Shown here one piece after another: positions 2,805 to 28,688 of a stretch of 64,000 nt of DNA. The position numbers and the translations under genes were made by a program. The notes beneath the pieces were generated by a model. The model was not told the origin of the DNA and searched no databases. It was given only the letters and a program-made list of their open reading frames with translations. Origin of the DNA: Trinickia fusca (GTDB lineage: Bacteria > Pseudomonadota > Gammaproteobacteria > Burkholderiales > Burkholderiaceae); contig NZ_RBZV01000001.1 of the NCBI RefSeq assembly GCF_003628145.1, forward strand, positions 963,558 to 1,027,557, in the 5' to 3' direction. Within the stretch, counting starts at the first letter, position 1; the number at the start of each line of letters is the position of its first letter.

Positions 2805-4337
2805 GTGCCGAGTCGTCCCCCGACCGCCTTGTGGGCCCAACAGTTCCGGCGGTCGTCGGCATCCAAGGCAAGTCTGCAGGATCAGATCCGGCAGATGCTC
2901 GTGGCCGCGATCCTCGACGGCCAGTTGCCGCCCGACGCCGCGCTGCCGTCGAGCCGTGAACTCGCCGATCAGTTGGGCGTCGCCCGCAACACGGTCGTGC
3001 TTGCCTACCAAATGCTCGTCGAAGAAGGCTATCTGATCTCGCGCGAACGTAGCGGACACTTCGTGAACGCAGCGATGCTCGGAGGCCGGCCTTGCCTCGA
3101 CGCCGCTCCGTCCGTGGCGTCCGCGTCCGCCGACGCAGACGCACCGGGCCGACCCATCTGGCAACAGCGCATCGCGCGCCCGCCGTCGCAGCAGCGCAAT
3201 ATCGTGAAGCCCGCGAATTGGCAGCACTACGAATTTCCCTTCATCTATGGCCAGTTCGACCAGTCGCTGTTTCCCATCAACGACTGGCGAGAGTGCTGCA
3301 TGAAAGCCCTGTCGGTCATGGAGATCCGCAACTGGGCACCTGACCTGATCGAGCGTGACGACGAATCGCTGATCCAGCAGATCCGCACGCGCGTGCTGCC
3401 GCGGCGTGGCGTCTTCGCGATGCCCGACGAAATCATCATCACGAACGGCTGCCAGCAGGCGTTGTACCTGATTGCCGACCTGCTCTGCGGCGAGGACACG
3501 ACGGTCGGTTTCGAGAATCCAGGCTATCCCGACGCCCGCAACATCTTCGAAAACCGCAATGCGCGGCTGCTGCCGCTGCCGGTCGACAGCAACGGGATTG
3601 CACCCGATGCGCTCCGCGATTCGCTCGCGCGCTGCGACTACGTGTATGTGACGCCGAGCCACCAGTGCCCCACCACCGCGACGATGCCGGTCGAGCGCCG
3701 CCACGCGCTGCTCGATTGCGCCCGGCAGCACGACTTCGTCATCGTCGAGGACGACTACGAGAGCGAGAACACGTTCTCCGGCACGCCGCACCCAGCGCTG
3801 AAAAGCCTCGACACGGCCGATCGCGTGATCTACGTCGGCAGTCTCTCGAAGACCTTCGCGCCTGGCCTGCGGCTCGGCTACGTGGTCGGCCCGCGCGAGC
3901 TGATTCGGGAGCTGCGCGCGCTGCGACGCCTGATGGTGCGGCATCCTGTCGGGTACATCCAGCGCGCGTTCGCGACGTTTCTCGCCCTCGGGCACCACGA
4001 CGCGCTGCTGCGCCGGCTCGCGCACGCGTACCGCGAGCGCTCGCAGGCCCTGATGGCCGCGCTCGATGCGCATCTGCCGGAAGCGCGTTACGTGCCTATC
4101 ACGGGCGGTGCGTCGTCCTGGGTCGAAGGTCCTGAGTGGCTCGACGACACGCGCCTTGCGGCCGACGCGCAGGCGGCCGGCATTCTGATCGAGCCCGGTA
4201 GCGTGTTCTTCATGAACGACGACCAGGACGCACGACGCTATTTCCGTATGGGCTTCTCGGCCATTGCACTGGATCGGATCGAGCCCGGCGTGCGTGCGCT
4301 CGCGCAATGCGTGCGCGCGCAGCAGCCCACTGCCTGA
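2805..4337 (+). CDS. MocR/TauR-type GntR regulator with aminotransferase domain
   Basis: A 510-aa PLP-binding transcription factor. The start is GTG at 2805, preceded at five bases by AGGAG (2795-2799); the longer upstream frame has no site and no family similarity. Residues about 20-88 form a GntR winged helix (SSRELADQLGVARNTVVLAY). Residues 130-505 are a fold-type I aminotransferase-like domain, with the PLP lysine at 349 in GSLSKTFAPGLRLGY. MocR proteins sense amino compounds or PLP; TauR of this family controls taurine genes in other proteobacteria. It sits convergent with soeC, 15 bp apart, at the island edge. Control of taurine or sulfonate genes is inference; vitamin B6 control (PdxR) is the alternative. 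Confidence 0.82.
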   Translation: MPSRPPTALWAQQFRRSSASKASLQDQIRQMLVAAILDGQLPPDAALPSSRELADQLGVARNTVVLAYQMLVEEGYLISRERSGHFVNAAMLGGRPCLDAAPSVASASADADAPGRPIWQQRIARPPSQQRNIVKPANWQHYEFPFIYGQFDQSLFPINDWRECCMKALSVMEIRNWAPDLIERDDESLIQQIRTRVLPRRGVFAMPDEIIITNGCQQALYLIADLLCGEDTTVGFENPGYPDARNIFENRNARLLPLPVDSNGIAPDALRDSLARCDYVYVTPSHQCPTTATMPVERRHALLDCARQHDFVIVEDDYESENTFSGTPHPALKSLDTADRVIYVGSLSKTFAPGLRLGYVVGPRELIRELRALRRLMVRHPVGYIQRAFATFLALGHHDALLRRLAHAYRERSQALMAALDAHLPEARYVPITGGASSWVEGPEWLDDTRLAADAQAAGILIEPGSVFFMNDDQDARRYFRMGFSAIALDRIEPGVRALAQCVRAQQPTA

Positions 4338-4352
4338 CGCACGGCCCACCCG

Positions 4353-5300
4353 TCAAGACGCGCGCTGGTAGTAAAGGTTTTGCGGATGCCGCGCATCCGC
4401 GAAGAAGAACCAGCGCTCCGCGACAAGGCCCGCATACTGGATCACGAACGCAGCGCCGAGTACGACAGCGACAGCCGTCGACATCTGCGCGAGCGCGCCC
4501 GCGCCCGTCAGCACGAATGGCACCGCGAACGCGGCGACCAGGAAGCCGACCTTGACCATCCGCACCGTGCCGCTGCTCTGCCCGTGAAAGAACTCGCGCG
4601 TGTTGAACGCGCTCGCCGTGAAGCCACGCGACTTCTGCTCAACCTTCGCGTCGCGAATGCCGGTCGCGCTCTGCACGGTCGACTTCGGCACGAGTCGCGC
4701 GTTGCGCTTGAGCGATGCGACACGCGTCGCGCAGCCCGCGAGCGTCAAGACACATGCCCACGGTGCGACCAAGCCGACGAGCGAGGGCGCGAGCCACGCT
4801 GCGCACGCGGTTGCAAGGGTGCACCCGGACGCGCAGCCGAGCAGCACGAAGTTCACAAGCGTGAGCGGGCTCGCCCATTCCTGCAGGAAGCGCAGGCACG
4901 CGTAGATCATCGCGGTGCAGACGAACAGTGCGACGCTCGCCGCCGCACCGAGTACGCCGATCGCGAGCGTGCCGCCGAACCCGACCCAATGCGCGATGCC
5001 GTACCCAAACGCGAGCGACAGGAACACGGGCAGCGCGATGCATTCACGCGACAGCCACGAGGTGCGCCACATCGCGATGGCACGCCATGCGCGCTCCGGA
5101 TGCCCGAGATGGAAGAACGACGCGAACAGGCCGAGCGTGCCGAGCGTGACCGTCAACGCGGCGCCGACGATATAGAACGCCGACGGAATGTCGGTGCTCG
5201 TTGCCCGTGCAACCGCTTCGATCGCCACGAGCGTAAGCAGCAGGCCCTGCGCGGTCCCGCAGAGCGTGGTGAGAAAAATGACTGAGAAAGCGGGCCGCAT
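4353..5300 (-). CDS. soeC: SoeC-like DmsC-family membrane anchor of sulfite dehydrogenase
   Basis: A 315-aa integral membrane protein of the DmsC/NrfD-like anchor type with about eight hydrophobic segments. The diagnostic stretch HLGHPERAWRAI followed by WRTSWLSREC lies near residues 82-106. These anchors pass electrons from the iron-sulfur subunit to quinone. It is last in the soeA-soeB-soeC order, 43 bp after soeB, with GGGAG before its ATG. SoeABC is the cytoplasm-facing, quinone-linked sulfite dehydrogenase described in purple sulfur bacteria and in marine taurine degraders. The assignment rests on the three-gene architecture plus the neighbouring xsc. DMSO or polysulfide reductase anchors are close relatives. 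Confidence 0.75.
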   Translation of the reverse strand: MRPAFSVIFLTTLCGTAQGLLLTLVAIEAVARATSTDIPSAFYIVGAALTVTLGTLGLFASFFHLGHPERAWRAIAMWRTSWLSRECIALPVFLSLAFGYGIAHWVGFGGTLAIGVLGAAASVALFVCTAMIYACLRFLQEWASPLTLVNFVLLGCASGCTLATACAAWLAPSLVGLVAPWACVLTLAGCATRVASLKRNARLVPKSTVQSATGIRDAKVEQKSRGFTASAFNTREFFHGQSSGTVRMVKVGFLVAAFAVPFVLTGAGALAQMSTAVAVVLGAAFVIQYAGLVAERWFFFADARHPQNLYYQRAS

Positions 5301-5343
5301 GGAAACTCCCTCGATGCCGATGGATTGATGTGAACCGCCCGAT

Positions 5344-6084
5344 TCATCGCCGCACGGCCATTGCCGCGAGATCGATCTCGCCGCGTTCGTAGCGCGCTTC
5401 GAGCGAATCGTCCGCCGCTGACGACGTGCTCCCGCACCCGCCGCCCTTCCCGCAGCCGCACGACGGCTCGGTCTTCACGCGTGGCAGATAGTGGTTCGAC
5501 GGCTTCGTGTCCCACTCCGGCATCAACTGATACCCCCCGCGCTCGCGAATCGCGCGCGACACCTCCGACTCCGGATCGTGAATGTCGCCGAAGAGCCGCG
5601 CAGACGTCGGGCACGCGAGCACGCAAGCCGGCTTGCGATCGCGCTCGGGCAGTGCGTCGTTGTAGATCCGGTCCGCACAGAGCGTGCACTTCGTCATCTC
5701 TTTGCGGCCTTCGTCCAGCTCCCGCGCGCCGTACGGGCACGCCCACGCGCAATACTTGCAGCCGATGCACTTGTCGTAGTCGACGAGCACGATCCCGTCC
5801 GACTTGCGCTTGTAGCTCGCACCGGTCGGGCAGACCGGCACGCACGGCGGATCTTCGCAGTGCAGACAGGATTTCGGGAAGTGGATCGTGTCGGTCAGGG
5901 GAAACACGCCCGCCTCGTACGTCTGCACGCGATTGAAGAACGTGCCCGACGGATCGTCGTCGTACGGTCGGATGTCCGTGAGGCTGCCTGCCTCACCGGA
6001 CGTGTTCCACTCCTTGCAGCTCGTCACGCAGGCATGGCAGCCGACGCAGACGTTCAAGTCGATGACGAGGGCCATTTGGGTCAT
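5344..6084 (-). CDS. soeB: SoeB-like four-cluster ferredoxin subunit
   Basis: A 246-aa electron-transfer protein of the DmsB/NrfC type. Four cysteine clusters are visible: CVGCHACVTSC (residues 13-23), CLHCEDPPCVPVCP (about 66-79), CIGCKYCAWACP (about 99-110) and CTLCADRI with a later ACVLACP (about 127-160). They should bind four [4Fe-4S] clusters bridging the molybdopterin subunit and the membrane anchor. The C-terminus carries an extra Gly/Cys-rich stretch (CGCGKGGGCG). It overlaps soeA by 4 bp (ATGA), so the two are translationally coupled. It has no Tat signal, consistent with a cytoplasm-facing complex. Confidence 0.82.
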   Translation of the reverse strand: MTQMALVIDLNVCVGCHACVTSCKEWNTSGEAGSLTDIRPYDDDPSGTFFNRVQTYEAGVFPLTDTIHFPKSCLHCEDPPCVPVCPTGASYKRKSDGIVLVDYDKCIGCKYCAWACPYGARELDEGRKEMTKCTLCADRIYNDALPERDRKPACVLACPTSARLFGDIHDPESEVSRAIRERGGYQLMPEWDTKPSNHYLPRVKTEPSCGCGKGGGCGSTSSAADDSLEARYERGEIDLAAMAVRR

Positions 6085-9035
6085 GTTACGGTTCCTCCCT
6101 CAGAGTCCTTCTGGGTCGCATCGGACGCGAACGCGCGCCGCAACCGTGCCGCGAACTCACCCTTGCCCGCGAAGTACGCCTGCACGCGCTGCAGCACATT
6201 CGTCGAGCCGGGCAGCGGTTGCATCGGCGCGAACTGCGGCAGCGTCGTCGTCGCATCGGCCTCGGCCGGATAGACCCGCACGCGCACGTCGTACCAGCCG
6301 GCCTGGCCCGTGATCGGATCGGAATTCGAGATCCGCTCGCCGGCTCGCATGTCGCTCGGCAACTCGTCGGTGATCACATGATTCAGCAGAAAGCCGCGCT
6401 GCGACTCACCCGCGCCCGGCCCCAGGTTCCATGCGCCGGCGGCCTTGCCGATCGCGTTCCAGGTCCACACCGTGCCCGGCTCGACCGCCTCGCTGTAGCG
6501 CGCGCGGCAACGCACCTTGCCCCACGGCGATTCGACGTAGATCCACCCGCCGTCGTCGATGCCCTCTGCTGCTGCCATTGCGGGATTCACGAACAGATGG
6601 TTCTCGCCGTGAATCTGCCGCAGCCAGGCGTTCTGCGAATCCCATGAGTGATACATCGCCATCGGCCGCTGCGTGATCGCCGCGAGGGGATAACGATCGA
6701 GATCGGTTGCATCGCGCTCGAGCGGCGGATACCAGAACGGCAACGGATCGAAGTAGCGCGCGATGCGCGCGCGCAGGTGATCGGGCGGCTGCCGTCCTTT
6801 CGTCTTGCCCTGCGCAGCGAGACGGAAAGTCTGCATGACTTCCGAATAGAGCTGGATGACGATCGGCACGCCGTACTTACGCATCCCGTTCTCGACCGCC
6901 CATTCCATGTACGGGCCGTTGAAGTTGCGCATGTACTGCAACGACTCCGGGAGCCGGTGGTGATAGACGCAGTTGTTCTTCGCATACTGCTCCCACTGCT
7001 TCGGATTCGGCTCGCCGATGACGGCCTTCGTCCCGTCCGTGCCGCGCCAGCCAATCAGAAAGCCCGTGCCCGAATCAGGCGCGGTCTGGAAGTTGATGAC
7101 GAAGTCGGGATAATCGCGGAACTTGCGCTTGCCGTCCGGCGTCGTGAACGCCGGAAACTTGAGCCGGCTGGCGAGCTCGATCAACACCTCCTGGAACGGC
7201 TTGCATTCGCCCGTCGGCGGCACCACCGGCACGCGCACCGAATCGACGGGACCGTCGAATTCGGAGATCGGGCGGTCGAGCACCGACATCACGTCATGGC
7301 GTTCGAGATAGGTCGTGTCGGGCAGGATCAGATCGGCAAACGCGGTCATCTCCGATTCGAACGCGTCGCAAACGACGAGAAACGGGATCTTGTATTCGCC
7401 GTCCGCTCGCTTGTCGACGAGCATGTTGCGGACTTCCGTCGTGTTCATCGACGAATTCCATGCCATGTTCGCCATGAAGATCAGTAGCGTGTCGATGGGA
7501 TACGGATCGCCCCGCCACGCATTCGTGATCACCGAATGCATGAGCCCATGCACCGCGAGCGGATATTCCCACGAGAAGGCCTTGTCGATGCGCGCAGGCG
7601 AACCGTCGTCGTGCACGAACAGATCCTCAGGCTTGGCAGGCCAGCCAAGCGGGCCAGTCGCGAGCGGCGTGTTCGGCTTGATCGACGCCGGATCGCTCGG
7701 CGGCTTGGCCGACGGCGGTGCCGCCCGCGGGTACGGCGCCTTGTGACGGAAGCCGCCCGGACGATCGATCGTGCCGAGCAGCGACATCAGCACCGCCATC
7801 GCGCGAATCGTCTGGAAGCCGTTCGAGTGCGCGGCCAGTCCGCGCATTGCATGGAACGCGATCGGCGCGCCTTCCACCGTGTCGTGCGTCTTGCCCCACG
7901 AATCGGTCCACTGAATCGGCAGCGCGATCCGCTGCTCGCGCGCGACGGCCGCCATCTCGCGCGCGATGCGCCGAATCGTGTCGGCCGCGATACCGGAGAT
8001 CTCCGCCGCCCACTCCGGCGTGCAAGGCGCAACCTGCTCGCGCAGCAGCGTGAACGACGGCGCGACCGGCGTGCCGTCCTCGAGCGTGTAGCGGCCGTCG
8101 AGCGCGGGCTCCGCGCCGTCCGTGTGATGCAGCACCGCACGGTTAGTGCGCGCGTCCCACCAGAGATGATTCTGCGGGTACAGTGCGTTGACTTCAGGCG
8201 CATCGGGATCGCGGACGAAAAGGCCGAACGTGTCGCGTTCCTCGCGCAAATCGACGAGCTCGCCCGCATTCGTGAATCGCTCGACGAATGCGCGATCGTA
8301 GGCATCGAGCTCGATCAGCTCGCGAATCAATGCCATGAACAGCGCGCCATCCGTGCCGGGGCGAATCGGAATCCATTCGTCGGCAATCGCCGCATAGCCG
8401 GTGCGCACGGGATTGATCGCAATGAAGCGCCCTCCCGCCCGCTTGAACTTCGACAATGCGATCTTCAGCGGATTCGAGTGATGATCCTCGGCTGTGCCGA
8501 TCATGAAGAACAGCTTCGCGTGGTCGAGATCGGGGCCGCCGAACTCCCAGAACGAGCCACCGATCGTATAGATCATGCCGGCCGCCATGTTCGCCGAGCA
8601 GAACCCGCCATGCGCAGCGTAATTGGGCGTACCGAACTGCTTCGCGAACAGACCCGTCAGCGCTTGCATCTGATCGCGGCCGGTGAAGAGCGCGAACTGT
8701 TTCGGATCGGTCGCACGCAGATGCGCGAGGCGCTTCTCGAGCGTCGCGAAGGCGACGTCCCACGACACGGGCTCGAACTGCGCGTCGCCGCGCGCCGCGC
8801 CGCGCTTGCGCATCAGCGGCCGCGTGAGACGCGCCGGCGAGTACTGCTTCATGATCCCCGACGAGCCTTTCGCACAGATCACGCCCTGGTTCAGCGGATG
8901 GTCCGGATTGCCGTCGATGTAGCGAATCTCGCCGTCGCGCAGGTGCACGCGAATCCCACAGCGGCACGCGCACATGTAGCACGTCGTGGTCTTGACCTCG
9001 AGCTTCTCGTTCTGCGTGCGCGCGTGATGGTCCAT
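6081..9035 (-). CDS. soeA: SoeA-like molybdopterin oxidoreductase, probable sulfite dehydrogenase
   Basis: A 984-aa catalytic subunit of the DMSO-reductase molybdoenzyme family, starting at MDHHART behind AAGGAGGAAGG; the longer frame lacks a site. Cys19, 22, 26 (CYMCACRC) and Cys54 (VICAKG) should ligate an N-terminal [4Fe-4S] cluster. Cys146 in HGGFCSANM is a good candidate molybdenum ligand. The C-terminal beta-barrel domain binds the second pterin dinucleotide. There is no Tat signal peptide, which fits SoeA and argues against periplasmic thiosulfate or DMSO reductases. Predicted reaction: sulfite to sulfate, with quinone reduced through SoeB and SoeC. It would detoxify and harvest electrons from the sulfite that Xsc releases. 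Function is inferred from context. Confidence 0.8.
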   Translation of the reverse strand: MDHHARTQNEKLEVKTTTCYMCACRCGIRVHLRDGEIRYIDGNPDHPLNQGVICAKGSSGIMKQYSPARLTRPLMRKRGAARGDAQFEPVSWDVAFATLEKRLAHLRATDPKQFALFTGRDQMQALTGLFAKQFGTPNYAAHGGFCSANMAAGMIYTIGGSFWEFGGPDLDHAKLFFMIGTAEDHHSNPLKIALSKFKRAGGRFIAINPVRTGYAAIADEWIPIRPGTDGALFMALIRELIELDAYDRAFVERFTNAGELVDLREERDTFGLFVRDPDAPEVNALYPQNHLWWDARTNRAVLHHTDGAEPALDGRYTLEDGTPVAPSFTLLREQVAPCTPEWAAEISGIAADTIRRIAREMAAVAREQRIALPIQWTDSWGKTHDTVEGAPIAFHAMRGLAAHSNGFQTIRAMAVLMSLLGTIDRPGGFRHKAPYPRAAPPSAKPPSDPASIKPNTPLATGPLGWPAKPEDLFVHDDGSPARIDKAFSWEYPLAVHGLMHSVITNAWRGDPYPIDTLLIFMANMAWNSSMNTTEVRNMLVDKRADGEYKIPFLVVCDAFESEMTAFADLILPDTTYLERHDVMSVLDRPISEFDGPVDSVRVPVVPPTGECKPFQEVLIELASRLKFPAFTTPDGKRKFRDYPDFVINFQTAPDSGTGFLIGWRGTDGTKAVIGEPNPKQWEQYAKNNCVYHHRLPESLQYMRNFNGPYMEWAVENGMRKYGVPIVIQLYSEVMQTFRLAAQGKTKGRQPPDHLRARIARYFDPLPFWYPPLERDATDLDRYPLAAITQRPMAMYHSWDSQNAWLRQIHGENHLFVNPAMAAAEGIDDGGWIYVESPWGKVRCRARYSEAVEPGTVWTWNAIGKAAGAWNLGPGAGESQRGFLLNHVITDELPSDMRAGERISNSDPITGQAGWYDVRVRVYPAEADATTTLPQFAPMQPLPGSTNVLQRVQAYFAGKGEFAARLRRAFASDATQKDSEGGTVT

Positions 9036-9103
9036 CGTCCTTCCTCCTTCACGGATAGCGGCCCCCGAACCTCGACGAGGAAGGGGCCGGCAATTCGGCA
9101 TCA

Positions 9104-9176
9104 CTTATGCTACGTGCGGCAGGAGCCGACAAAAAGTCGCTTTCCATGATCGAAACTATCGGCCCGCCAGATAGTT
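9104..9176 (-). promoter_or_regulatory. Putative soeABC promoter with upstream inverted repeat
   Basis: On the minus strand a TTGTCG box (9127-9132) and a CATAAG box (9104-9109) are separated by 17 bp, about 70 bp before the soeA start. Just upstream lies the inverted repeat AACTATC (9154-9160) and GATAGTT (9170-9176) with a 9-bp spacer. Its place upstream of weak -35 and -10 boxes suits an activator such as the MocR protein. Which regulator binds is not shown by the sequence. Confidence 0.4.
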
Positions 9177-9196: not shown

Positions 9197-10612
9197 TCAG
9201 GGCCTTTCGTCGTGCCTGAAGTACTGGAGATAAAGCATGCGCTGTCCGATCCGACGGAACGGTGCGAACAGATGGCCCGGCAGCGGGCTCGTGAAGATCG
9301 GCAGCGTCTGATGCGCGCCCTTTCCCGCGATGCGCTCGGCCAGCCGCCGCCCCGCTTGCTGCGAGTACGACACGCCGTTGCCGCCATATCCGAGCGCGTA
9401 GAACACCGATTGTTTCGGATCAGGCTGACAAACCCGCGGCATCATGTCGTGGCTCACGTCCACCCACCCCCACCACGAGTAATCGATCGGCACGCCGCGC
9501 AGCGCTGGGAACTTGCGCGCCATGCCCTCCTTCAGCAAGTCCAGGTGGCGCGGATTCGGCGCGTCATGACCTGTGATCGCGCTGCGGCTGCCGATCTGCA
9601 GGCGGCGGTCAGGCAGGAAGCGATAGTAGAAACGCAGCGTCCGCGTGTCGGTCAGCACCTGCGTCGTGCGGAAGTTGCACGCGCCGATCTCCTCGTCGGT
9701 GAGCACACGCGTGACCATCGAATTCGACAGGATCGGCATCACCTTGCTGCGCAGCGACGGATGCAACGTCTGCGCCGTATAGGCACCGGTCGCGATGCCG
9801 ACCGCCCGCGCGCGGACGATGCCCCCTGGCGTACGCAGATGATGCACGCCGTTGATCGTCTCCCACCCGATCACGGGGCTGCTCGTATGAACTCGGGCAC
9901 CGGCCGCGCGTGCGAGACGCAGATAGCCGAACGCGAGCTTCAACGCGTGAATGCCGATGCCTTCCGGCTCGTGCAGTGCCCCGGCCGCCTCGTGGTCGTT
10001 CAGGAATTCACGACGGAAGGTCTCCGCGCTAAGCAGTTCGGAGGGATAGCCGAACACATCCTTCCAGACCTTCGCCTCGGCGGCGAGCTTCGCCATGATG
10101 CGAGGACGATGCGCAATCAGGAAGTGGCCGCCCGGCTGCGGGTCGCAATCGATCTCGGCCACGAACGACTTGAAGTGATTGAAGCCTTCGAGGATCTCTT
10201 CGTGCATCTTCAGCGCGACGTCCTTGCCCCAGCGGTCGATCCATTGCGAGCGCGAGAGGCGCCCCGACGCGTTCTGCCCCTGCCCACCGTTGCGGCTGCT
10301 GCAGCCCCAACTCGTGCGATTCGCCTCGAGGACGACGGCCTTGATGCCGTGCTCGCGCGCGAGGCATAGCGCCGTGGCGAGTCCCGTATAGCCCGCACCG
10401 ATGATCGCGACGTCGACGTCGATGTCCTTCGTGATGGGACCGTCGTCGGGCGGCGGGCTGCCGGCGGTCGCAACCCAGTACGTCGGCGCGTAGTCCTTGC
10501 CCTGTCCGGGGCCGGGGGAGACGAGCGGATCGTAAGTCGGATCGTAACGCGTGTCGGCCGACGCACCCGTGATCAAGCCGCCCGCCACTCGATCGACAGA
10601 GCTGTATCCCAT
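9197..10612 (-). CDS. FAD-dependent amine oxidoreductase (DadA/PuuB type), candidate taurine dehydrogenase
   Basis: A 471-aa D-amino-acid-oxidase-fold flavoprotein. The ADP-binding motif DVAIIGAGYTGLATALCLA lies at about residues 46-64. It is followed by SSRNGGQGQNASGR, which contacts FAD in gamma-glutamylputrescine oxidase and sarcosine oxidase relatives. The C-terminal ALGYGGNGVSYSQQAG is the second flavin motif. The start is ATG at 10612, eight bases after AGGAG. Members deaminate small amines. Beside xsc, soeABC and tauABC-type genes the likely substrate is taurine, or an N-methyl derivative, giving sulfoacetaldehyde, as TauY does in Paracoccus. No TauX-like small subunit was seen. Other amines remain possible. 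Confidence 0.7.
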   Translation of the reverse strand: MGYSSVDRVAGGLITGASADTRYDPTYDPLVSPGPGQGKDYAPTYWVATAGSPPPDDGPITKDIDVDVAIIGAGYTGLATALCLAREHGIKAVVLEANRTSWGCSSRNGGQGQNASGRLSRSQWIDRWGKDVALKMHEEILEGFNHFKSFVAEIDCDPQPGGHFLIAHRPRIMAKLAAEAKVWKDVFGYPSELLSAETFRREFLNDHEAAGALHEPEGIGIHALKLAFGYLRLARAAGARVHTSSPVIGWETINGVHHLRTPGGIVRARAVGIATGAYTAQTLHPSLRSKVMPILSNSMVTRVLTDEEIGACNFRTTQVLTDTRTLRFYYRFLPDRRLQIGSRSAITGHDAPNPRHLDLLKEGMARKFPALRGVPIDYSWWGWVDVSHDMMPRVCQPDPKQSVFYALGYGGNGVSYSQQAGRRLAERIAGKGAHQTLPIFTSPLPGHLFAPFRRIGQRMLYLQYFRHDERP

Positions 10613-10778
10613 GATTAGCACTCCTATGCGGCAATCTGTTGAAGAAAGTTTAGGTAGGCCAATTTCACTCAGGTAGAACCAGTGGCACGAATTCGCTTGG
10701 ACCAGCGCGTTAGCGCGTTGCGGGGGTAGTCAATGTGGCACAAAATGGTTCATTTCCAGCGCCCCCCCGAGGAAAGAC
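10613..10778. promoter_or_regulatory. Divergent intergenic region with GTGGCAC direct repeats
   Basis: This 166-bp gap separates the FAD oxidoreductase (minus) from the IclR gene (plus). It contains GTGGCAC twice, at 10682-10688 and 10735-10741, each followed by an AT-richer run. TTCATTTCCA (10749-10758) resembles the TCATTCCA repeats in front of xsc. These are candidate operators for the local IclR or MocR regulators. No convincing -35/-10 pair was found. Confidence 0.3.
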
Positions 10779-13417: not shown

Positions 13418-13442
13418 TTCTCGTCTCCTGCGACAGTTCGAT

Positions 13443-17365: not shown

Positions 17366-17452
17366 CGGTCGGCCGAACCAGCGGATTGCTCTGCTGCCTT
17401 CGGCCGCCCTTCATCTGCGGACGCCCCCGTCCCGTTGCGAGCCCATCACGCC

Positions 17453-20213: not shown

Positions 20214-21205
20214 AGCGGCGTGCCGCCGCTCGATTCACCGTCCAGCGACGCCCCGAAGAGCTCGACGCCGAAGCAGCGCTGGTAATACTCAGCGACGATC
20301 GGCCGCTCGGACTCGTCGCATTTGTTCAAGAACGTCAGCCGGAATGCGAGCGCGGGATCGCGAAAGATCTGGCAATTCTCGGCCCAGTTGATCACGGTGC
20401 GCGGCGACATCAACGTAGAGAGATCACCGGTGGCGAACCCCTTGCGCGTCAGCGCGGCCATGCTGACCATCGACTCGACGAGCGCGCGGCCCGCCTCGTC
20501 GGCCATGTCGGGCACGCGCGCGAGCACGATGCCCGCCTCCTCCTCGCGCGGCAGATAGTTGAGCGTCGCCACCACGTTCCAGCGATCCATCTGCGCGTGG
20601 TTGAGCATCTGCGTGCCGTGATAGAGGCCGTTGAGATTGCCGAGGCCGACTGTATTCGTCGTCGCGAACAACCGGAAGTACCGATGTGGATGGATCACGC
20701 GGTTCTGATCGAGCAGCGTGAAACTGCCATCGCGCTCCAGAATCCGCTGGATGACGAACATCACGTCGGGACGGCCCGCGTCGTATTCGTCGAAGATCAA
20801 CGCGACCGGGCGCTGCAACGCCCACGGCACGATGCCTTCCTGGAACTCGGTGACCTGACGATCGTCGCGCACGACGATCGCATCCTTGCCGACCAGATCT
20901 AGCCGGCTGATATGACCGTCGAGGTTCACGCGCACGCACGGCCAGTTCAGCCGTGCGGCGACCTGTTCGATGTGCGTCGACTTGCCCGTGCCGTGCAGGC
21001 CCTGAACCATCACGCGCCGGTTGCGCGTGAAACCGGCGAGGATCGCGAGCGTCACCTCCGCGTTGAAGCGGTAGGCCGAATCGACGTCTGGCACGTGGTC
21101 GTCGCCCTCGCTGAACGCCGGGACCATCAGATTGGAGTCGATGCCGAAGTGTTCGCGCACCGACACCATGCGATCCGGCATCTCCTTCGTGAAATCCGTC
21201 GTCAC
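20204..21205 (-). CDS. CobS-like MoxR-type AAA+ ATPase
   Basis: A 333-aa AAA+ ATPase related to CobS. The start is GTG at 21205, behind GAGGAG. The longer frame adds ten residues without a site, and 333 aa equals the usual CobS length. Walker A GLHGTGKS lies at residues 69-76, Walker [10 protein letters not shown] near 130, and sensor-1 [10 protein letters not shown] near 180. The N-terminal [16 protein letters not shown] is CobS-like. It should form a hexamer that works with the downstream VWA partner. Genes for the chelatase large subunit CobN are absent, so cobalt chelation for B12 is not supported by the neighbourhood. The pair may remodel or metallate an island enzyme. Confidence 0.8.
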
Positions 21206-21466
21206 AGCACTCTCCTCACGACCACGCCACCGCAAGCCAACTCAAATCTCGGTACAAATTGTATCGGCTGATTTTCGCCCGCTGATAGGACCAGTGGCCG
21301 GGTTTCGGCTGGTACAGCCGCGTCTTTTGATCCCGAATCGGCACTTTGCGTTTCACTTTCGACCACGCGAACGGGTGTGGGCTTGCGAATGCCCTCGCCA
21401 TCCACGACATTGAAGCGAACAGCATGAAACGCGATGTTTCGCATGGACTGTCGGGAGACGCCTTTC

Positions 21467-23104
21467 ATGGACCTGGAAGTCGACTATCTGATCGTTGGCG
21501 CGGGATCGGCGGGATGCGTGCTGGCCAATCGCTTGAGCGCCGATCCGCTCAATTCGGTCTTGCTGCTAGAAGCGGGCGGCGCTGACACCAATCCCTGGAT
21601 CCACGTGCCGGTCGGCTACTTCAAGACCATGCACGATCCCGAACTCGACTGGTGCTATCGCACCGAGCCGGCCGACAACGTCGCCGGCCGCCGGATCGAT
21701 TGGCCGCGCGGCAAAGTGCTGGGTGGCTCCAGTTCGCTCAACGGCCTCCTCTATGTGCGCGGACAGCGTGAGGACTACGATCGATGGGCAGAACTCGGCA
21801 ATCGTGGCTGGCGCTATGTCGACGTCCTGCCCTACTTCAAGAAATCCGAAGACCAGGAGCGTGGCGCCGACGCTTATCACGGCGTAGGCGGGCCGCTGAA
21901 AGTCTCCGATCTGCGGTTGCGCCGGCCGATCGCCGATCATTTCATCGCGGCCGCGCAGGACCTCGGCATCCCGTTCAATCCCGACTACAACGGCGCCAGC
22001 CAGGAAGGCGTCGGCTACTTCCAGCAAACCGCGTATAAGGGCTTGCGCTGGAGCACCGCGAAGGGCTTTCTGAAGCCGGTGCGCTCGCGCGCTAACCTGC
22101 ACGTCGAGACGCATGCCCAGACCTTGCGCGTGCTCTTCGAAGGCAACGCGGCCATCGGTGTCGAGTACGTGCAGGGCGGCGAGCGCAAGACGGCGCGCGC
22201 GCGTGTTGAGGTCATCCTCGCGTCCGGCACGATCGGCTCGCCGCAACTGCTCCAGCACTCTGGCATCGGCCCCGCGACGCTGCTGCAAAGTGTCGGCGTA
22301 CCCGTGCGCCTCGATCTGCCCGGCGTCGGACGGAATCTGCAGGACCACTTGCAGGTTCGACTCGTGTTCCGCACGCGCGAACGCACGCTCAACGATGAGA
22401 TCAACCATCCGCTTCGCAAAGCGTGGATCGGCATGCAATACGCGCTCTGGCGTACCGGGCCGCTCACGCTGGCCGCGAGCCAGGTCGCCATCTTCACGCG
22501 CTCCAACCCGGACGTCGATCGTCCCGACATCCAGTTCCACATGCAGCCGCTCAGTGCCGACAAGCCCGGCAAAGGCCCCCACCCGTTCTCGGCGTTCACT
22601 TCGTCGGTGTGCCAGCTGCGGCCGTTCAGCCGCGGCAGCATCGAGATCCGCTCGGCCGATCCACTGCAGTATCCGGCCATCCACGCCAACTATTTGTCGG
22701 ACGAGCGCGACCATCCGGTCGTGATCGGCGGGATCAAGGTCGCACGGCGCATCGCCGCCGCGCCCTCGCTCGCGCCGCACATCGTTTCCGAGTTCGTGCC
22801 CGGCGCGCACTATCGAAGCGATGCCGAGCTGCTCGAGGCGGCGCGCCAGTTCAGCCAGTCGATCTATCACCCGGCGGGCACCTGCAAGATGGGCCGCGAT
22901 CGACTCGCGGTCGTCGACGAGCGACTGCGCGTGCACGGCGTCGCGCGGCTGCGCGTAGTCGACGCGTCGATCATGCCGGAGCTCGTCTCGGGCAACACCA
23001 ACGCGCCCGTCATCATGATCGCCGAGAAGGCCGCGGACATGATCCTCGAAGACCGGGCGTCGCGAGCCATATCGAGGTGCGAGCACACCGATGCGGGCAC
23101 GTGA
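21467..23104 (+). CDS. iseJ: GMC flavoprotein dehydrogenase, candidate isethionate dehydrogenase
   Basis: A 545-aa glucose-methanol-choline oxidoreductase. The start [11 protein letters not shown] at 21467 follows GGGAG. The FAD Rossmann motif is [18 protein letters not shown] signature 1 is [18 protein letters not shown] (near 85-102), and signature 2 is [16 protein letters not shown]. The active-site His468 lies in [10 protein letters not shown], with Asn512 in SGNTNAP. Relatives oxidise alcohols to aldehydes; IseJ of Cupriavidus necator oxidises isethionate to sulfoacetaldehyde. Placement between pta/cobST and sauRSTU supports that role, which is inference. Choline dehydrogenase (BetA) is less likely, as no betaine genes are nearby. 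It is convergent with sauU, 111 bp away. Confidence 0.72.
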
Positions 23105-23215: not shown

Positions 23216-24598
23216 TCAACGCCGCCAGTGCAGCGGCCGGCGCAGGGTATGCCGCTCGATCCGCACGGTCGGCACCCTGTCGAGAAACGCGAACGCACCA
23301 CCGTCGCGGGCGCCCTCGCGCCGCTCGCGCTCCTCGTCGGCCTCGACGGTGCGATTCGTGTTGATGAACAGCGCCGCGACGATGCCGAGCGCGAGCAGCC
23401 CGGCCGAGATCGTGAACGGCACGTTATAGCTGCCGGTACGTTCGATCAGGTAGCCGAACACGACCGGCGAAACCATGCCGGCGATACCGAAGCCGGTGTT
23501 CATCATGCCGCCCGCCGTGCCAGCGTACTTGCCTGCGATATCGAGCGGCAGGGTCCAGAGGACCGGATTCGTGATTTCGAGGAAGAAGAACGACCCGGTC
23601 AGCAACCACACCGCCGTCAACGGGTTCGCCACCGAGATCATCGGCACCAGGAACGCGAGCGAGCCGCCCATGCCGACCACCAGCACCGCACAGCGTGCGA
23701 AACGCAGCCGCCCGGTGAGCTTGAAGATCCGGTCCGACACCACCCCGCCGAACGTGTCGCCTACCACGCCAGCGAGCAGCGGTAACGCCGTGAAGAGCGC
23801 GAGCTGCTTGAGGTCGAAGCCGCGTGACTCCTTCAGGTAGGACGGCAGCCAGGTCAGATAAACCCACAGCAGCCAGCCATAGCAGAAGTCGACGAAGGTG
23901 ACGAGCCACATGCGGTGGATCAGCTTGCGCCACGGCGTCGCCGAGCGCTTCGCGCGCTCACAGTCGCCGGCGCGATAGCCGATTTCGGCAGTTTCCTCGG
24001 GCGTGATGCGGCGATTCTGTTCCGGCGAATTCGTGAAGACGAAGAGATAGAGCACCGTCCACGCAAGGCTCGCGATACCGAGCAGGATGAACGCCTGCCG
24101 CCAGCCGCTCGCGACCACCACCGCGAGCACGAGCGGCGGCGTAATGGCGCCGCCGAGGCGCGCGAAGCTGTGCGTGATGCCCTGTGCAAAGCCACGCTCG
24201 CCGACCGGCATCCAGTAGGTAAATGCGCGCGTGGCGGTGGGGAACGCACCGCCCTCGCCGATACCGAGCGCGAAGCGCATGATCACCAGCACGATGACGC
24301 TGCCGGCGAAGCCGGTCCCGAGCGTCGCGGCTCCCCAGATCAGCGAGAGCACCGTCAGCACGAGCTTCGGACCGAACTTGTCCGCTAACCAGCCGCCGAT
24401 GATCTGCATGGCCGCATACGGGTAGGCGAACGCCGAAAACACGAGACCGAGTTGCACGGTCGTCAGCCCCATCTCATGGCGGATCAGCGGTCCCGCGACT
24501 GCAATGTTCACTCGGTCGATGTAAGAGATGAAATACATCAGGCACATGACCGCCAAAATGATGTGGCGCGTCTTCACGCGTTGCGCAAGCTGTTTCAT
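23216..24598 (-). CDS. sauU: MFS transporter, probable sulfoacetate importer
   Basis: A 460-aa major facilitator of the anion:cation symporter family with about 12 membrane segments. The N-terminal motif is [16 protein letters not shown], the loop 2-3 motif [11 protein letters not shown], and [13 protein letters not shown] follows. TAGGAGACA precedes the ATG. The cluster sauS-sauT-sauU on one strand with a divergent IclR gene is the arrangement known from Cupriavidus necator, where SauU carries sulfoacetate. The C-terminal tail is unusually charged ([15 protein letters not shown]). A 78-bp gap separates it from sauT. Substrate assignment is by gene order; other acids are carried by the same family. 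Confidence 0.8.
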
Positions 24599-24676: not shown

Positions 24677-26266
24677 TCAGCCGGGCGCCGGGGCCACCAG
24701 CTTCAGACGCTGCACCTTGCCCGACGGGCCGCGTGGCAGCTCTTTGACGAAGTGGATTTCCTTCGGCGTTTTGTAGCGGCCCAGCTCGCGCAGGCAGTGG
24801 GCGTACAGCTCCTTCACATTGGGCGTGCCGGCCCAATGCGACTCGCGCGGCACGACGAACGCAACGATCTCCTGCCCGTAGGCGGGATCGGGCACGCCGA
24901 CCGCGGCGGCATCGAGCACGCCCGGATGGCGCAGCAGCGCCTCGTCGATCTCACGCGGCGCGATGTTTTCGCCGCCCTTGATGATCAACTCCTTCGAACG
25001 GCCGTTGATGTAGAAGTAGCCGTCGTCGTCCTGATAACCGAGGTCGCCGGTGCGCAGCCAGCCGTCGGCCGTGAAGGCCTTCTCGGTTTCCTCCGGGCGC
25101 TTGTAATAGCCGCGCATCACCTGATCGCCGCGCAGCACGATTTCGCCGAGGTGATGCGGGGCGCACGCGCGGCCTTCGAGATCGATCACCTTCGCCTCGC
25201 CCCCCGAGGGCAGCCCGATGCTGCCGATGCGCCGCCGAGCCGGATCGTAGGGATTGCTGAACATGGGCGCGGCGGTTTCGGTCATCCCCATCGTCTCGAT
25301 GATGCCGATGCCGAAACGCGCCTCGAACGCGCGGTGATGGTCGCCCGGCAACGCGGCCGACGCGCTACGACAAAACTTCAGTGCCGAGAGGTCCAGGCCG
25401 CCCGGCTCATCGCCGTTGAGCAGGTACGCGATGATGGTGGGCACCACGTTGATCCACGTACAGCCGAAGCGCGCGACGTCGCGCCAGAATGTGCGCGCCG
25501 AAAAGCGCGGCACCATGACGACCGAGCCGACGTGATAGAGCGGCGTGATGAGCGTCACGACCAGCCCGTTGATATGGTAAAGCGGCAGCGACGCGAGCAC
25601 GCGATCCTCGGCGCCGAGCCGATGTTCGATGCTGATGTTGCGCGCGTTCGCGAGCAGGTTGTGGTGGCTCAGCAGCACGCCCTTGGGGGCGCCCGTCGTG
25701 CCGGAGGTGTACATCAACAAGGCGATATCCTTCGCGTCGCCGCTGGCGCTCATCAGGGCTTCGTCGTCCGTGCCGACGCTCGCCGCCTCGGGCGCGTCGG
25801 CGAGCACGGGCAGCTCGGTAGCATCGGGCGCCGTGCGCACGAGGGCGACCTCTCGCATCGTGCCCTGCTCATGTAACTCGGATCGCACCGCGGCTAGCGC
25901 GTCGATCGTTTCGTCGCAGGCAAAAATCATGCGCGTGTCCGAATGTTCGACGATGTAGCGCAGTTGCGACGCCTGGCACAGCAGGTTCAGCGGATGCGCG
26001 ATGAGCCCGCTGTACATCGCGCCGAGTAGCAGCACGGCGGTCTGGGTGCCATTGCCCATGAACACCGAGACGACGTCGCCTGGCCGCAGGCCAGCGGTGC
26101 GAAAGTGCCTTTCGAGCGCGCGGCAGCGCTCACGCAGCATGGCGAAGGTGATCACCGCGCCGGCCGCCGCCTCGTCGCCCTCCGGCGCGGCCAGCAGGAA
26201 CGGCTTGTCGGGATATTGCGCGGCGCGCGCGTCGATCAAGGCGCGCAGAGTCATGGGCGTGCTCAT
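24677..26266 (-). CDS. sauT: Sulfoacetate-CoA ligase
   Basis: A 529-aa acyl-adenylate-forming ligase. Core motifs: the ATP/AMP loop LLMYTSGTTGAPKGV (near residue 187), ETMGMTETAAPMFSNP (A5 region), WLRTGDLGYQDDDGYF, INGRSKELIIKGGENIAP (A8 hinge), and the C-terminal catalytic Lys in LPRGPSGKVQRL. It would convert sulfoacetate, CoA and ATP to sulfoacetyl-CoA with release of AMP, in the cytoplasm. Its start overlaps the sauS stop by 4 bp, so it is coupled to the dehydrogenase that uses its product. The substrate is inferred from this coupling and from the xsc island; the motifs alone would fit many short-chain acids. Confidence 0.83.
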   Translation of the reverse strand: MSTPMTLRALIDARAAQYPDKPFLLAAPEGDEAAAGAVITFAMLRERCRALERHFRTAGLRPGDVVSVFMGNGTQTAVLLLGAMYSGLIAHPLNLLCQASQLRYIVEHSDTRMIFACDETIDALAAVRSELHEQGTMREVALVRTAPDATELPVLADAPEAASVGTDDEALMSASGDAKDIALLMYTSGTTGAPKGVLLSHHNLLANARNISIEHRLGAEDRVLASLPLYHINGLVVTLITPLYHVGSVVMVPRFSARTFWRDVARFGCTWINVVPTIIAYLLNGDEPGGLDLSALKFCRSASAALPGDHHRAFEARFGIGIIETMGMTETAAPMFSNPYDPARRRIGSIGLPSGGEAKVIDLEGRACAPHHLGEIVLRGDQVMRGYYKRPEETEKAFTADGWLRTGDLGYQDDDGYFYINGRSKELIIKGGENIAPREIDEALLRHPGVLDAAAVGVPDPAYGQEIVAFVVPRESHWAGTPNVKELYAHCLRELGRYKTPKEIHFVKELPRGPSGKVQRLKLVAPAPG

Positions 26267-27708
26267 CGGCCGACGCTCCTGAAGTAGTCGCCGAGTAGCT
26301 CGTCGAGCTCCGGCACACGCTCTGCGAGCGCATAGGCGACGCGCGTCACGTTCAGGTATTGGCGAAAGCCGAGATTGCCCGAGAAGTTATTGCGGCCCCA
26401 GGTGCCGCAGCCCATCGACAGCGAGAACGGCAGGCCATTGTCGAAGTTGCCGCCCGTCGCGAGGCAGTGCGCCTGGTTGACGATCACGCGCGCGACCGGC
26501 AACTGCTCGCCCAGCGCGACGGCGAGGTCCATGTGTGCCGTGTGCAGGCCAACCGAGTGGCCCGCGCCCATGTACGCGTAGATATTGCGCACGATGCGTG
26601 TGGCATCGGCGAAATCGCGCGCGCGATAGACCGCGAGCACCGGCGCAAGCTTCTCTCCCGAGAACGGGTGGTCGGCACCGAAGCCGCTTTCCTCGACCAT
26701 CAGGACGCGCGGCTCACGCTCGGCGACGTCGTCGAGGCCAGCCGTCTGCGCAATCCGCGTCGCGGATTTTGCGGTGCAGCGCTCGGAAAGCTTGCCGTCG
26801 TGCCACATCGTCGCCTGCAGTTGTGCCTTCTGCGTCGCATCGAGGAGCACGCTGCCACACCGCTGCAGCTCGCCGAGCATGGCGTCGTAAACCGCGTCCT
26901 CGATCACGACGCTGTTTTCCGACGAGCAACTCGTCGCATTGTCGAAGGTCTTCGACAGCACGATCTTGCGCGCCGCATCGGGCAGATCGGCCGAGCGCTC
27001 GACGATCGACGCGACGTTGCCGGCGCCGACGCCGAAGGCCGGCGTGCCGCTCGTGTAGGCCATGCGCACGTTCGCCTGCGAGCCGGTCGCCACGACCAGA
27101 TCCGCCTCGCGCATCAGCGCGGCAGTCGCGGCCTTGCTGATTGGCGCAGGCAGAATCTGCACGAGCGCGGGATCGAGTCCGGCCTTTTCGAACTGCGCGT
27201 GGATGAAGTCGATCAGCAACGCGCATGACGAATAGCCCTTTGGCGAAGGAGAGACGATCACCGCGTTGCCGCATTTGAGCGCGTTGATGATCTTGTTCGC
27301 GGGCGTCGCCACCGGGTTGGTGGACGGCGTGACCGCAGCCACCACGCCTACTGCGCGTGCGATCTCGACGATGCCGTTTGCCGGGTCGCGTGCGATCACG
27401 CCGCAGGTCGGCCGACCATGCAGATCGCGCAGCAGCCCGAGTGTCTTGCGAAAATTCTTGCGAAACTTGTCGTCGGCGTTGCCAAGCCCGGTATCGCGTA
27501 CCGCCAGCTCGGCGAGTTGGCGATTGCGCGTGGGCTCCATGATCGCCCAAGCGGCAGCGGCGGTAGCCGTGTCGAGCGCCGCCTGGCCGGCGAACTCGAA
27601 TGCGCGCTGCGCCTCGCGTGCGCGCGCAACGAGCGCGGCGACGCGCTGCTTCACCTCCTCTTCTGCTGGCGTGCCGGCGGTTTCGGCTGCTGTGGCCCTG
27701 ATATTCAT
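26263..27708 (-). CDS. sauS: Acylating sulfoacetaldehyde dehydrogenase
   Basis: A 481-aa CoA-acylating aldehyde dehydrogenase (EutE/AdhE-like class). The start is ATG at 27708, eight bases after AGGAG; the GTG three codons earlier overlaps the site. The nucleophile Cys261 lies in NATSCSSENSVV. The NAD-binding region includes AVTPSTNPVATPANKI and GSQANVRMAYTSG. The C-terminal GGNFDNGLPFSLSMGCGTWG is typical of acylating enzymes. Predicted reaction: sulfoacetyl-CoA reduced to sulfoacetaldehyde and CoA with NADPH, feeding Xsc. It is first in the sauSTU operon and divergent from sauR across a strong palindrome. Confidence 0.88.
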   Translation of the reverse strand: MNIRATAAETAGTPAEEEVKQRVAALVARAREAQRAFEFAGQAALDTATAAAAWAIMEPTRNRQLAELAVRDTGLGNADDKFRKNFRKTLGLLRDLHGRPTCGVIARDPANGIVEIARAVGVVAAVTPSTNPVATPANKIINALKCGNAVIVSPSPKGYSSCALLIDFIHAQFEKAGLDPALVQILPAPISKAATAALMREADLVVATGSQANVRMAYTSGTPAFGVGAGNVASIVERSADLPDAARKIVLSKTFDNATSCSSENSVVIEDAVYDAMLGELQRCGSVLLDATQKAQLQATMWHDGKLSERCTAKSATRIAQTAGLDDVAEREPRVLMVEESGFGADHPFSGEKLAPVLAVYRARDFADATRIVRNIYAYMGAGHSVGLHTAHMDLAVALGEQLPVARVIVNQAHCLATGGNFDNGLPFSLSMGCGTWGRNNFSGNLGFRQYLNVTRVAYALAERVPELDELLGDYFRSVGR

Positions 27709-27821
27709 ACGCGGCACTCCTGATCGAAAGCATTGGCGGTACTACCAATCTATTCGTCAGCAGCGGGTTGCGAGTCCCGTTTCTCGGTCATTCTTCGACT
27801 GCATCGGCCAGGGCAACTGAA

Positions 27822-27863
27822 AGCGCAGATTTCGGGACTTTTCGGAGTCCCGAAATCTGCGCT
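27822..27863. promoter_or_regulatory. Perfect 17-bp-arm inverted repeat between sauS and sauR
   Basis: AGCGCAGATTTCGGGAC (27822-27838) is exactly inverted as GTCCCGAAATCTGCGCT (27847-27863), around an 8-bp spacer. It sits in the 215-bp divergent gap, 114 bp from the sauS start and 60 bp from the sauR start. Perfect arms of this length in a divergent regulator gap point to the operator of SauR, controlling both directions. A transcribed hairpin in the sauR leader is the alternative; there is no T-run to make it a terminator. Confidence 0.75.
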
Positions 27864-27923
27864 ATGAGATGCACAATGAAGGCAAAGGCACCTGCGACAC
27901 GGCCGCCATCTTCAGGAGACACG

Positions 27924-28688
27924 ATGTCGACGTCGAATCAATCCAATGCGGCGGCGGTACGAGCGTTTCGTGTGCTGGAAACGCTGGCGGAAGCCGGCCA
28001 CCCTCTATGTTTGATGGATCTCGTGAACACGCTCGGTCTGCCCAAGCAAACCGTGCATCGCATCCTCGTGCAGCTGACTGACGCGTGGCTCGTGACGCGG
28101 GGCGCCGGCGACAAGCTCTACGAGTGTTCGCCCCGCGTGCGGATGTTGGCGGTCAACGTGCTCATGCACGCCGGGCCCGCGGCAGCGCGCCATGTTTTGC
28201 TGGAGCAGCTCGTCGCGAAGATCGGCGAGACGTGCAACCTGACCATGCTGTCCGGCAACGATGTCGTCTACGTGGACCGTGTGGAGACCGAATGGCCGTT
28301 AAGGATGCATCTGCAGGCGGGATCGCATGTGCCGCTGCACTGCTCGGCAAGTGGCAAGCTGTTGGTCAGCTTCCTGCCGAAAGACCGGCGTGAACGCGTA
28401 ATCGAAACGCTGCCGCTGCGGGCCTATTCGGAGCGCACGATTACCGACCGAGAGGTGTTACGTAAGGAGCTTGCGGCAACACGCCGGCGCCGGCTCGCGA
28501 TCAACAACCAGGAGCATTTGCAAGGTTTGATCGCGATCGCGGTGCCGGTGATGCTCGATCGCAATCGGGCCTGCGCGGCGATTGCCGTGCAAGCCCCGGT
28601 CGGGCGCGTGACGCTCGACGACCTGCTCGCGTTCGTGCCCGACCTACGACATGCAGCGGATGAGACTGCGAAGACATTTCGGGAGTGA
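27924..28688 (+). CDS. sauR: IclR-family regulator of the sau operon
   Basis: A 254-aa IclR protein. The start ATG at 27924 follows AGGAGA; the ORF extends 52 codons upstream through the palindrome, which is not coding-like. The winged helix covers residues about 8-75 (LMDLVNTLGLPKQTVHRILVQL). The effector domain has GETCNLTMLSGNDVVYVDRVE, VPLHCSASGKLLV and RRLAINNQEHLQGLIAIAVPV. It is divergent from sauSTU, as in the known sauRSTU arrangement. Likely ligand: sulfoacetate or sulfoacetyl-CoA (inference). It is close in sequence to the IclR protein at 10779, so the two could cross-talk. Confidence 0.87.
   Translation: MSTSNQSNAAAVRAFRVLETLAEAGHPLCLMDLVNTLGLPKQTVHRILVQLTDAWLVTRGAGDKLYECSPRVRMLAVNVLMHAGPAAARHVLLEQLVAKIGETCNLTMLSGNDVVYVDRVETEWPLRMHLQAGSHVPLHCSASGKLLVSFLPKDRRERVIETLPLRAYSERTITDREVLRKELAATRRRRLAINNQEHLQGLIAIAVPVMLDRNRACAAIAVQAPVGRVTLDDLLAFVPDLRHAADETAKTFRE

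Follow-up and report, generated by a model that had tools for sequence, protein, structure and literature searches.

The 64,000-nucleotide stretch of Trinickia fusca DNA considered here (positions 963,558 to 1,027,557 of contig NZ_RBZV01000001.1; hereafter the window) contains, at 2805-28688, what is confirmed as a complete-looking C2-sulfonate catabolic island of a known kind, including the gene for sulfoacetaldehyde acetyltransferase (xsc) and those for taurine dehydrogenase (tauX and tauY). In the middle of this block (18486-21235) lie two genes whose products match best to the cobaltochelatase models for CobT and CobS, both below the model cut-offs, and it is this conserved CobST-like pair, not the island, that is the new element. 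The tie of the pair to the sulfonate pathway is well supported. For its action we offer a hypothesis, towards which the evidence inclines us slightly: the pair would be a dedicated helper, made up of an AAA+ ATPase and a von Willebrand factor A (VWA) protein, that matures or reactivates one of the pathway enzymes (Xsc or TauXY), much as NorQD and CbbQO do for theirs. The CobS-like protein would serve as the AAA+ motor and the CobT-like protein as the VWA adaptor, the two together maturing or reactivating their client; we infer every step of this action, the client and any metal involved.

Walker A and B patterns are found in all 67 of the xsc-linked CobS rows, and the metal-ion-dependent adhesion site (MIDAS) pattern in 66 of 68 xsc-linked CobT rows, the two misses being two pieces of one locus (L019). 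An AAA+ protein with Walker motifs adjoining a VWA protein with a MIDAS is the mark of a pair of the NorQD/CbbQO type, and that is the arrangement seen here. For the N-domain, identity to the window CobT averages 22% among 16 true CobT proteins and 45% among 25 distant xsc-linked ones; for the VWA domain the averages are 40% and 55%. Of the two partners, the adaptor would appear to have undergone greater divergence than the motor, as might be expected after a change of client.

In a CobS tree of 86 rows, a branch with support of 100/99 sets 66 linked rows apart from 19 rows from outside the window's class together with the CobS of G083, a genome of the window's order; sequences outside 280-700 amino acids (among them a fragment from genome G129) and locus L097, which comes from the same genome as L120, were left out of this tree. 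The row nearest to the window's CobS is that of Trinickia symbiotica (93% identity). The other 19 rows, which are alphaproteobacterial, are called true CobS by score and tree position (16 lie above the cut-off and three below), with CobN sought in 5 of the 20 genomes on that side, four of which belong to the outside-class rows and all proved positive. Among solved structures, CobT matched cobaltochelatase chains only and CobS matched these together with Midasin and CbbQ, while Xsc matched only BbmA (E 1e-60), TauX gave weak NTF2-like matches, and no structure matched TauY at E 1e-10. On the sequence evidence, the pair does not look like a working cobaltochelatase.

The distribution of the pair follows that of the pathway. 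In a draw of 150 genomes at family level, the cobS-like gene was found in 48, xsc in 51 and tauY in 52; it was present in 48 of the 52 tauY-positive genomes (the four without it being G498, G528, G551 and G628), in 47 of the 51 xsc-positive genomes, and in none of the 98 without tauY. G550 is the only genome with the cobS-like gene but no xsc; there the gene lies no more than 250 bases from one end of a contig of 5 kb, so xsc may have been lost to assembly. An order-level draw of 160 genomes yielded, besides G083, six genomes with a cobS-like match above 400 bits, all six with xsc and tauY. In a phylum-level draw (299 genomes), one set of six genomes from the window's class has the cobS-like gene, xsc and tauY (at 65% or more) together, and outside that class CobS occurs in 83 genomes, including all 15 with xsc. 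Among 50 genome entries, mostly those behind the xsc loci described below, the cobS-like gene is present in 48 (absent from G142 and G454) and tauY in 49 (absent from G466); with G158 and G460, whose places are identical, taken as one genome, the counts become 47/49 and 48/49. The draws and the loci are not independent sets, because some family-draw genomes also lie behind loci. Two small genomes, G627 (~2.2 Mb; loci L091 and L122) and G064 (~2.0 Mb; L124 and L125), have retained the CobST-like pair along with xsc, tauXY and Soe-type genes.

Physical linkage is likewise close. In the family draw, the cobS-like gene shares a contig with xsc in 47 of 48 genomes and lies no more than 6 kb from it in 41; it is at most 10 kb from tauY in 41, and closer to xsc in 37 and to tauY in 10. 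Within 10 kb it has xsc or tauY beside it in 46 of 48 genomes, a genetic link to a client enzyme that does not distinguish the two. We also examined 80 xsc loci, the best by Xsc similarity of 586 relatives; adjacency counts from them are biased because they were chosen in this way, whereas the genome draws were not Xsc-chosen. The cobS gene is seen in 65 of these loci, with cobT next after it in 65/65, and the gene upstream of cobS is an IclR regulator in 30, xsc in 19, an iseJ-like gene in 8, tauY in 5 and none seen in 3. At one locus of Caballeronia sp. NK8 (L137, NZ_AP024327.1, 12957-17230), genes for a GTP-binding protein, which we take to be a G3E/COG0523 metallochaperone, and an amidohydrolase stand beside cobT, and some ten xsc loci of Caballeronia and Pandoraea contain genes like these. 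PMC5320631 names COG523 and COG1574 as members of TauR regulons.

The closest relative of the pair is the aerobic cobaltochelatase CobNST, with which it shares domains and motifs, and the plainest alternative is that these are the ordinary CobS and CobT of B12 synthesis, beside xsc by accident. Both proteins do match best to cobaltochelatase models and to solved CobS/CobT chains, and the genome of the window has a CobN above the cut-off, on contig C34 (the block is on C1). We nevertheless regard this as very improbable. In addition to the sub-threshold scores of both proteins, the divergent CobT N-domain and the separate CobS clade, there is no CobN at the locus; no CobS above the cut-off occurs in any of the 150 family-draw genomes, and the CobS-like gene tracks tauY and xsc. 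CobN was sought in 25 genomes, 17 of which have a CobS-like gene, and among these carriers 11 gave no match, five a match above the cut-off and one (G064) a match below it. The carriers with no match are G093, G009, G335 and G401, together with the genomes of L067 (Vibrio), L079 (Shewanella), L068 (Billgrantia), L005 (a metagenome-assembled genome, MAG), L023 (Pandoraea), L072 (Janthinobacterium) and L057 (Alcaligenaceae). The sole CobS above the cut-off in the order draw is that of G083, whose CobN-like match, on the same contig, is below the cut-off. A further reading, in which the pair hitch-hikes with the cassette or travels with it as an AAA+/VWA chaperone for stress in general, with no specific role in sulfonate breakdown, seems to us rather unlikely: a joint spread of xsc, pta, tauXY and the pair as one cassette is conceivable, and G142 and G628 are exceptions that have xsc and tauY without it, yet the gene order around the pair is reshuffled while the pair stays near xsc or tauY, its motifs are intact, and it is kept in the 2.2 Mb genome G627, where tauXY lies ~850 kb from xsc and the pair.

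If the pair is a dedicated helper, as we prefer to think, its client must be found within the pathway or beyond it; we would put first, tentatively, the class of Xsc found here, then TauXY with distinctly less confidence, and then something else. By identity to the window protein, the 100 Xsc rows fall into a group of 88 with at least 82%, one of 10 with 60-72%, and two rows from alphaproteobacteria with 45-46%. Within the order, a bit score over or under 1000 was used as a stand-in for the class; the split agrees with identity in 10 lower-score and several higher-score genomes, rests on score for seven of the 14 lower-score order-draw genomes, and fails in G349, an alphaproteobacterial genome with 1015.7 bits and 45% identity. 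The cobS-like gene accompanies the higher class in 47/48 family-draw genomes and the lower class in 0/3, and in the order draw the figures are 6/7 and 0/14, leaving aside the true CobS of G083. It is quite unlikely, in our view, that TauXY rather than Xsc is the client. In favour of TauXY, tauY is present in all 48 of the family-draw genomes with the cobS-like gene, and in five of six genomes of genus g4 (read as Cupriavidus, since one coincides in place with locus L030) the pair is separated from tauY by 5 kb and from xsc by 19-23 kb. Set against this, the pair is missing from all five genomes with another Xsc class and tauY (hits in the 61-70% identity range: G498, G528, G551, G138 and G092, tauY occupying two frames in G092); tauX-tauY occurs on an Acinetobacter plasmid, where a search confined to that plasmid gave no CobS match; and the 11 kb tau-xsc locus of Sinorhizobium meliloti has no CobST, such alphaproteobacteria carrying CobST elsewhere. 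The lower-class genomes and the plasmid therefore speak against a general need of TauXY for the pair, and for this Xsc class. Window-class Xsc proteins have about nine extra residues at 399-407 relative to the 60-72% class. As a docking site, this loop gave no simple answer: it is shortened in Janthinobacterium and in one Alcaligenaceae carrier, and present in the non-carriers L085 and L088.

Several observations weigh against a dedicated helper of Xsc or TauXY. In all six of the g4 genomes cobS is 19-29 kb from xsc (29 kb in G158), and linkage does not single out Xsc, because in five of them cobS sits only 5 kb from tauY. G129, from the order draw, lacks both xsc and tauY yet carries cobS-like fragments scoring 247 and 137 bits, and the Xsc class occurs with tauY and without the pair in G142, G628 and G454, the last maybe through an assembly gap. 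A CobN match is present in 6 of the 17 carriers, among them the genome of the window and one other whose match is below the cut-off. The co-occurrence counts and Fisher tests take no account of shared descent. Distance-matrix correlations, calculated on the 30 of 81 rows with all six proteins within set lengths and then on 15 of those, single out no client: CobS and CobT correlate at 0.97 and, after thinning, 0.86, and on going from 30 to 15 rows the values of the pair change from 0.88-0.90 to 0.62-0.71 with Pta, from 0.74-0.79 to 0.45-0.50 with Xsc, and from 0.57-0.58 to 0.57-0.59 with TauY. Finally, the window has 19 matches to the TauR operator (Rhodobacter consensus, at most two mismatches) against a mean of 26 in shuffled sequence, so the matches, being no more numerous than by shuffling, give no regulon evidence.

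A helper role for paired AAA+ and VWA proteins is not without parallel. NorQD powers the insertion of metal into nitric oxide reductase (PMC13036017, PMC9976466), and CbbQO reactivates Rubisco, with CbbO as the VWA adaptor (PMC4660213); each, like the window pair, is a two-gene AAA+ and VWA unit tied to the genes of its client enzyme. The window pair differs from both in belonging by sequence to the CobST branch and not to MoxR/CbbQ/NorQ, with CbbQ chains matching CobS only at E ~1e-6, and in that its client would be an enzyme using thiamine diphosphate or flavin adenine dinucleotide (FAD) in which no inserted metal is known. CobST pairs separated from a full CobNST set also occur elsewhere, with different partners. 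CobST without CobN is described for tailed viruses (PMC8651126), and the urease cluster of a Pandoraea oxalativorans plasmid (L138, NZ_CP011518.2, 3365-10823), for which the gene table, itself incomplete, lists no ureF, has a CobS/CobT pair immediately after ureG. In a quick 42-row tree, a branch with support of 100 sets off the 21 xsc-linked rows, and the L138 CobS falls among true CobS; because of that grouping the urease-linked pair is an independent case, and it may represent a second occasion on which CobST was recruited to a metalloenzyme.

Xsc forms the hub at which the aerobic routes for degrading taurine, isethionate and sulfoacetate meet, and the sauRSTU and iseJ clusters of Cupriavidus reportedly serve C2-sulfonate dissimilation. 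Compared with these clusters and with the tauR-tauABC-tauXY-xsc-pta cluster of S. meliloti pSymB, the island of the window has the same enzymes and hub, and TauXY, Xsc, Pta, SauS and the MocR/IclR regulators are all recognisable in it (Table 1). It differs in that a single block of 26 kb brings together a Soe-type set and the entry genes for taurine, isethionate and sulfoacetate, in the separation of tauX and tauY by 4.3 kb with iclR and tauBAC between them, and in its CobST-like pair. A first-pass annotation of the same DNA had proposed that several entries converge on sulfoacetaldehyde. Profile searches, combined with open reading frames (ORFs) called by codon position over 2805-28688, recovered every gene family it had named; its list had omitted TauX and both members of the pair.

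Table 1. Genes called in the island (window coordinates)
Gene or product	Position	Strand	Basis
tauR-like MocR regulator (GntR + aminotransferase-like)	2805..4337	+	PF00392, PF00155; NCBIfam PdxR 365.7 bits (cut-off 320); 45% identity to S. meliloti tauR-side ORF
soeC-like membrane anchor	4353..5300	-	PF04976 DmsC, 49.6 bits
soeB-like Fe-S subunit	5344..6084	-	PF13247 Fer4_11
soeA-like molybdopterin subunit	6081..9104	-	PF00384, PF04879, PF01568
tauY, taurine dehydrogenase large subunit (FAD, DAO family)	9197..10621	-	PF01266; 63% identity to S. meliloti TauY
IclR-family regulator, adjoining iseJ-like gene in many relatives	10779..11591	+	PF01614, PF09339; gene order
tauB-like ATP-binding cassette (ABC) ATPase	11632..12369	-	PRK11248 254.7 bits, below cut-off 357
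tauA/ssuA-like substrate-binding protein	12398..13456	-	TIGR01728 131.5 bits, below cut-off 163.5
tauC-like permease	13443..14297	-	PRK10160 214.9 bits, below cut-off 342
tauX, taurine dehydrogenase small subunit (SnoaL/NTF2-like)	14933..15337	+	PF12680; 53% identity to ORF before tauY in S. meliloti
xsc, sulfoacetaldehyde acetyltransferase	15482..17320	+	TIGR03457 1076.5 bits, cut-off 676.4
pta, phosphate acetyltransferase	17342..18472	+	TIGR00651 349 bits, cut-off 311.2
CobT-like VWA protein, MIDAS motif (DxSxS)	18486..20213	-	TIGR01651 288.7 bits, below cut-off 759.05
CobS-like AAA+ ATPase, Walker A and B	20204..21235	-	TIGR01650 532.2 bits, below cut-off 558.55; own clade
iseJ-like GMC dehydrogenase (candidate isethionate dehydrogenase)	21434..23104	+	PF00732, PF05199; PRK02106 above cut-off
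sauU-like major facilitator superfamily (MFS) transporter	23216..24598	-	PF07690
sauT-like CoA ligase	24677..26266	-	PF00501
sauS, acylating sulfoacetaldehyde dehydrogenase	26263..27717	-	NF047625 791.8 bits, cut-off 600
sauR-like IclR regulator	27768..28688	+	PF01614, PF09339

Convergence of several C2 sulfonates on sulfoacetaldehyde is the best reading of these enzymes, the substrates of the entry enzymes being assigned by homology, and the three branches of the proposal fared differently. The taurine branch gained in strength. The DadA-type FAD oxidoreductase, suggested earlier as a candidate taurine dehydrogenase, is 63% identical over residues 26-472 to a protein of S. meliloti pSymB (NC_003078, 1054264-1055613) encoded between tauX and xsc; the 11 kb stretch around it, whose record carries no gene table there, has matches to window proteins in the order tauR, tauA (28%), tauB, tauC, tauX (53%), tauY (63%), xsc (46%) and pta (55%). 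Because a homologue of it precedes tauY in the S. meliloti locus, the SnoaL-like ORF ahead of xsc is read as TauX. S. meliloti mutants deleted for tauR, tauC or tauY fail to grow on taurine (PMC4254191). With taurine entering through TauXY, no aminotransferase is required; the gene at the left edge of the block encodes a MocR-type regulator and not such an enzyme. A mobilizable plasmid of Acinetobacter johnsonii (L136, NZ_CP083948.1) carries a pyridoxal phosphate (PLP)-type regulator, tauX, tauY and a permease at 8718-13850, with no xsc in the 23 kb of gene table read, and its tauXY perhaps serves nitrogen use.

The remaining assignments are of mixed firmness. A TauABC-type transporter is present as proposed, its proteins scoring below the TauA, TauB and TauC equivalog cut-offs, and xsc and pta, the latter for acetyl phosphate, are borne out by scores above theirs. 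Of the putative sauRSTU set, SauS exceeds its equivalog cut-off, and SauT (AMP-binding ligase), SauU and SauR are family matches without a specific model; SauS and the gene order together point to a sulfoacetate branch. For isethionate, the sole pointer is a GMC enzyme that lies beside IclR and xsc genes in relatives. Its likeness to IseJ, claimed earlier, holds as to the GMC family and that context, whereas its best named model is the choline-dehydrogenase subfamily PRK02106 (615.7 bits, cut-off 605; betA, 518 bits, falls below its cut-off of 732.1), and no IseJ model match appeared in the profile search. Similarly, the molybdopterin, 4Fe-4S and DmsC-type subunits claimed as SoeABC are all present (4353-9104), each scoring below the cut-offs of the named equivalogs it matched, and the probable assignment to SoeABC comes from subunit make-up and context. 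PMC5320631 describes TauR regulons with tauXY, xsc and pta that in some Rhodobacterales also contain bisC, hybA and dmsC, which fit the Soe-type set of the window. No TauE/TauZ-type exporter was found among the 20 proteins scanned, in keeping with the earlier annotation. In the pathway so predicted, TauXY would oxidise taurine, the IseJ-like enzyme would convert isethionate, and SauT would activate sulfoacetate for reduction by SauS, each giving sulfoacetaldehyde; Xsc would then yield acetyl phosphate and sulfite, of which Pta would convert the former to acetyl-CoA and the Soe-type complex would oxidise the latter.

The whole order from SoeA to SauS is kept in 4 of the 80 xsc loci (L005-L008; three Trinickia and one Paraburkholderia MAG), and elsewhere parts of the island are shuffled or missing. 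Both edges, marked by tauR and sauR, were recovered in three genomes of the same genus (G524, G557 and G585), and the tauR edge in G506; the window's guaA and guaB are absent from all eight same-genus flank stretches of ~20 kb each. Since the edge genes are kept on other flanks, the gene set stays together while its location varies, and this, with the order kept in four loci, makes the block more than chance. Among 11 same-genus genomes of the family draw, the window's own included, nine have the cobS-like gene, xsc and tauY, and two (G576 and G601) have none of the three.

The left edge of the block is sound: the tauR-like gene begins with GTG at 2805, preceded by AGGAG at 2795-2799, in frame with a longer ORF from 2655. 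To the right, ten proteins scanned include core-type products (GMP synthase, IMP dehydrogenase, a phosphoenolpyruvate (PEP)-synthase-like protein, LpxB, an Omp85 protein and GlnD). The G+C content of the block lies within the range of the remaining window; no tRNA or tmRNA that could be an attachment site was found in the window or in the eight flank stretches, and no RNA family matched the window at gathering scores. Just beyond the two edges lie a VapB-type antitoxin ORF (2335-2556) and an HTH_37 ORF (28760-29095). Upstream of tauX, two similar imperfect inverted repeats (14842-14869 and 14889-14914; core AAGCGCT-RAAGCGC, read by eye) possibly represent operator sites or hairpins; neither has an Rfam match.

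In the openly accessible literature we found no description of this pair in sulfonate breakdown, which does not show that it is absent from print, and the main text of PMC5320631 contains no word beginning with "cob". It is tempting to speculate, with less confidence than we place in a helper role as such, that across beta- and gammaproteobacteria a cobaltochelatase-derived pair acts as a dedicated activase or metal-loading chaperone of taurine and C2-sulfonate breakdown, most likely for one class of Xsc. If so, Xsc (or TauXY) would need ATP-driven maturation or repair, which has been assumed for neither enzyme, and predictions of taurine use from xsc alone would be incomplete. Annotations as "cobaltochelatase subunit" beside xsc would be mislabels, and B12 synthesis would be wrongly predicted wherever these CobS/CobT genes are counted towards it. 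The pair would then offer a genetically simple case in which to learn the function of orphan AAA+/VWA pairs of the CobST type.

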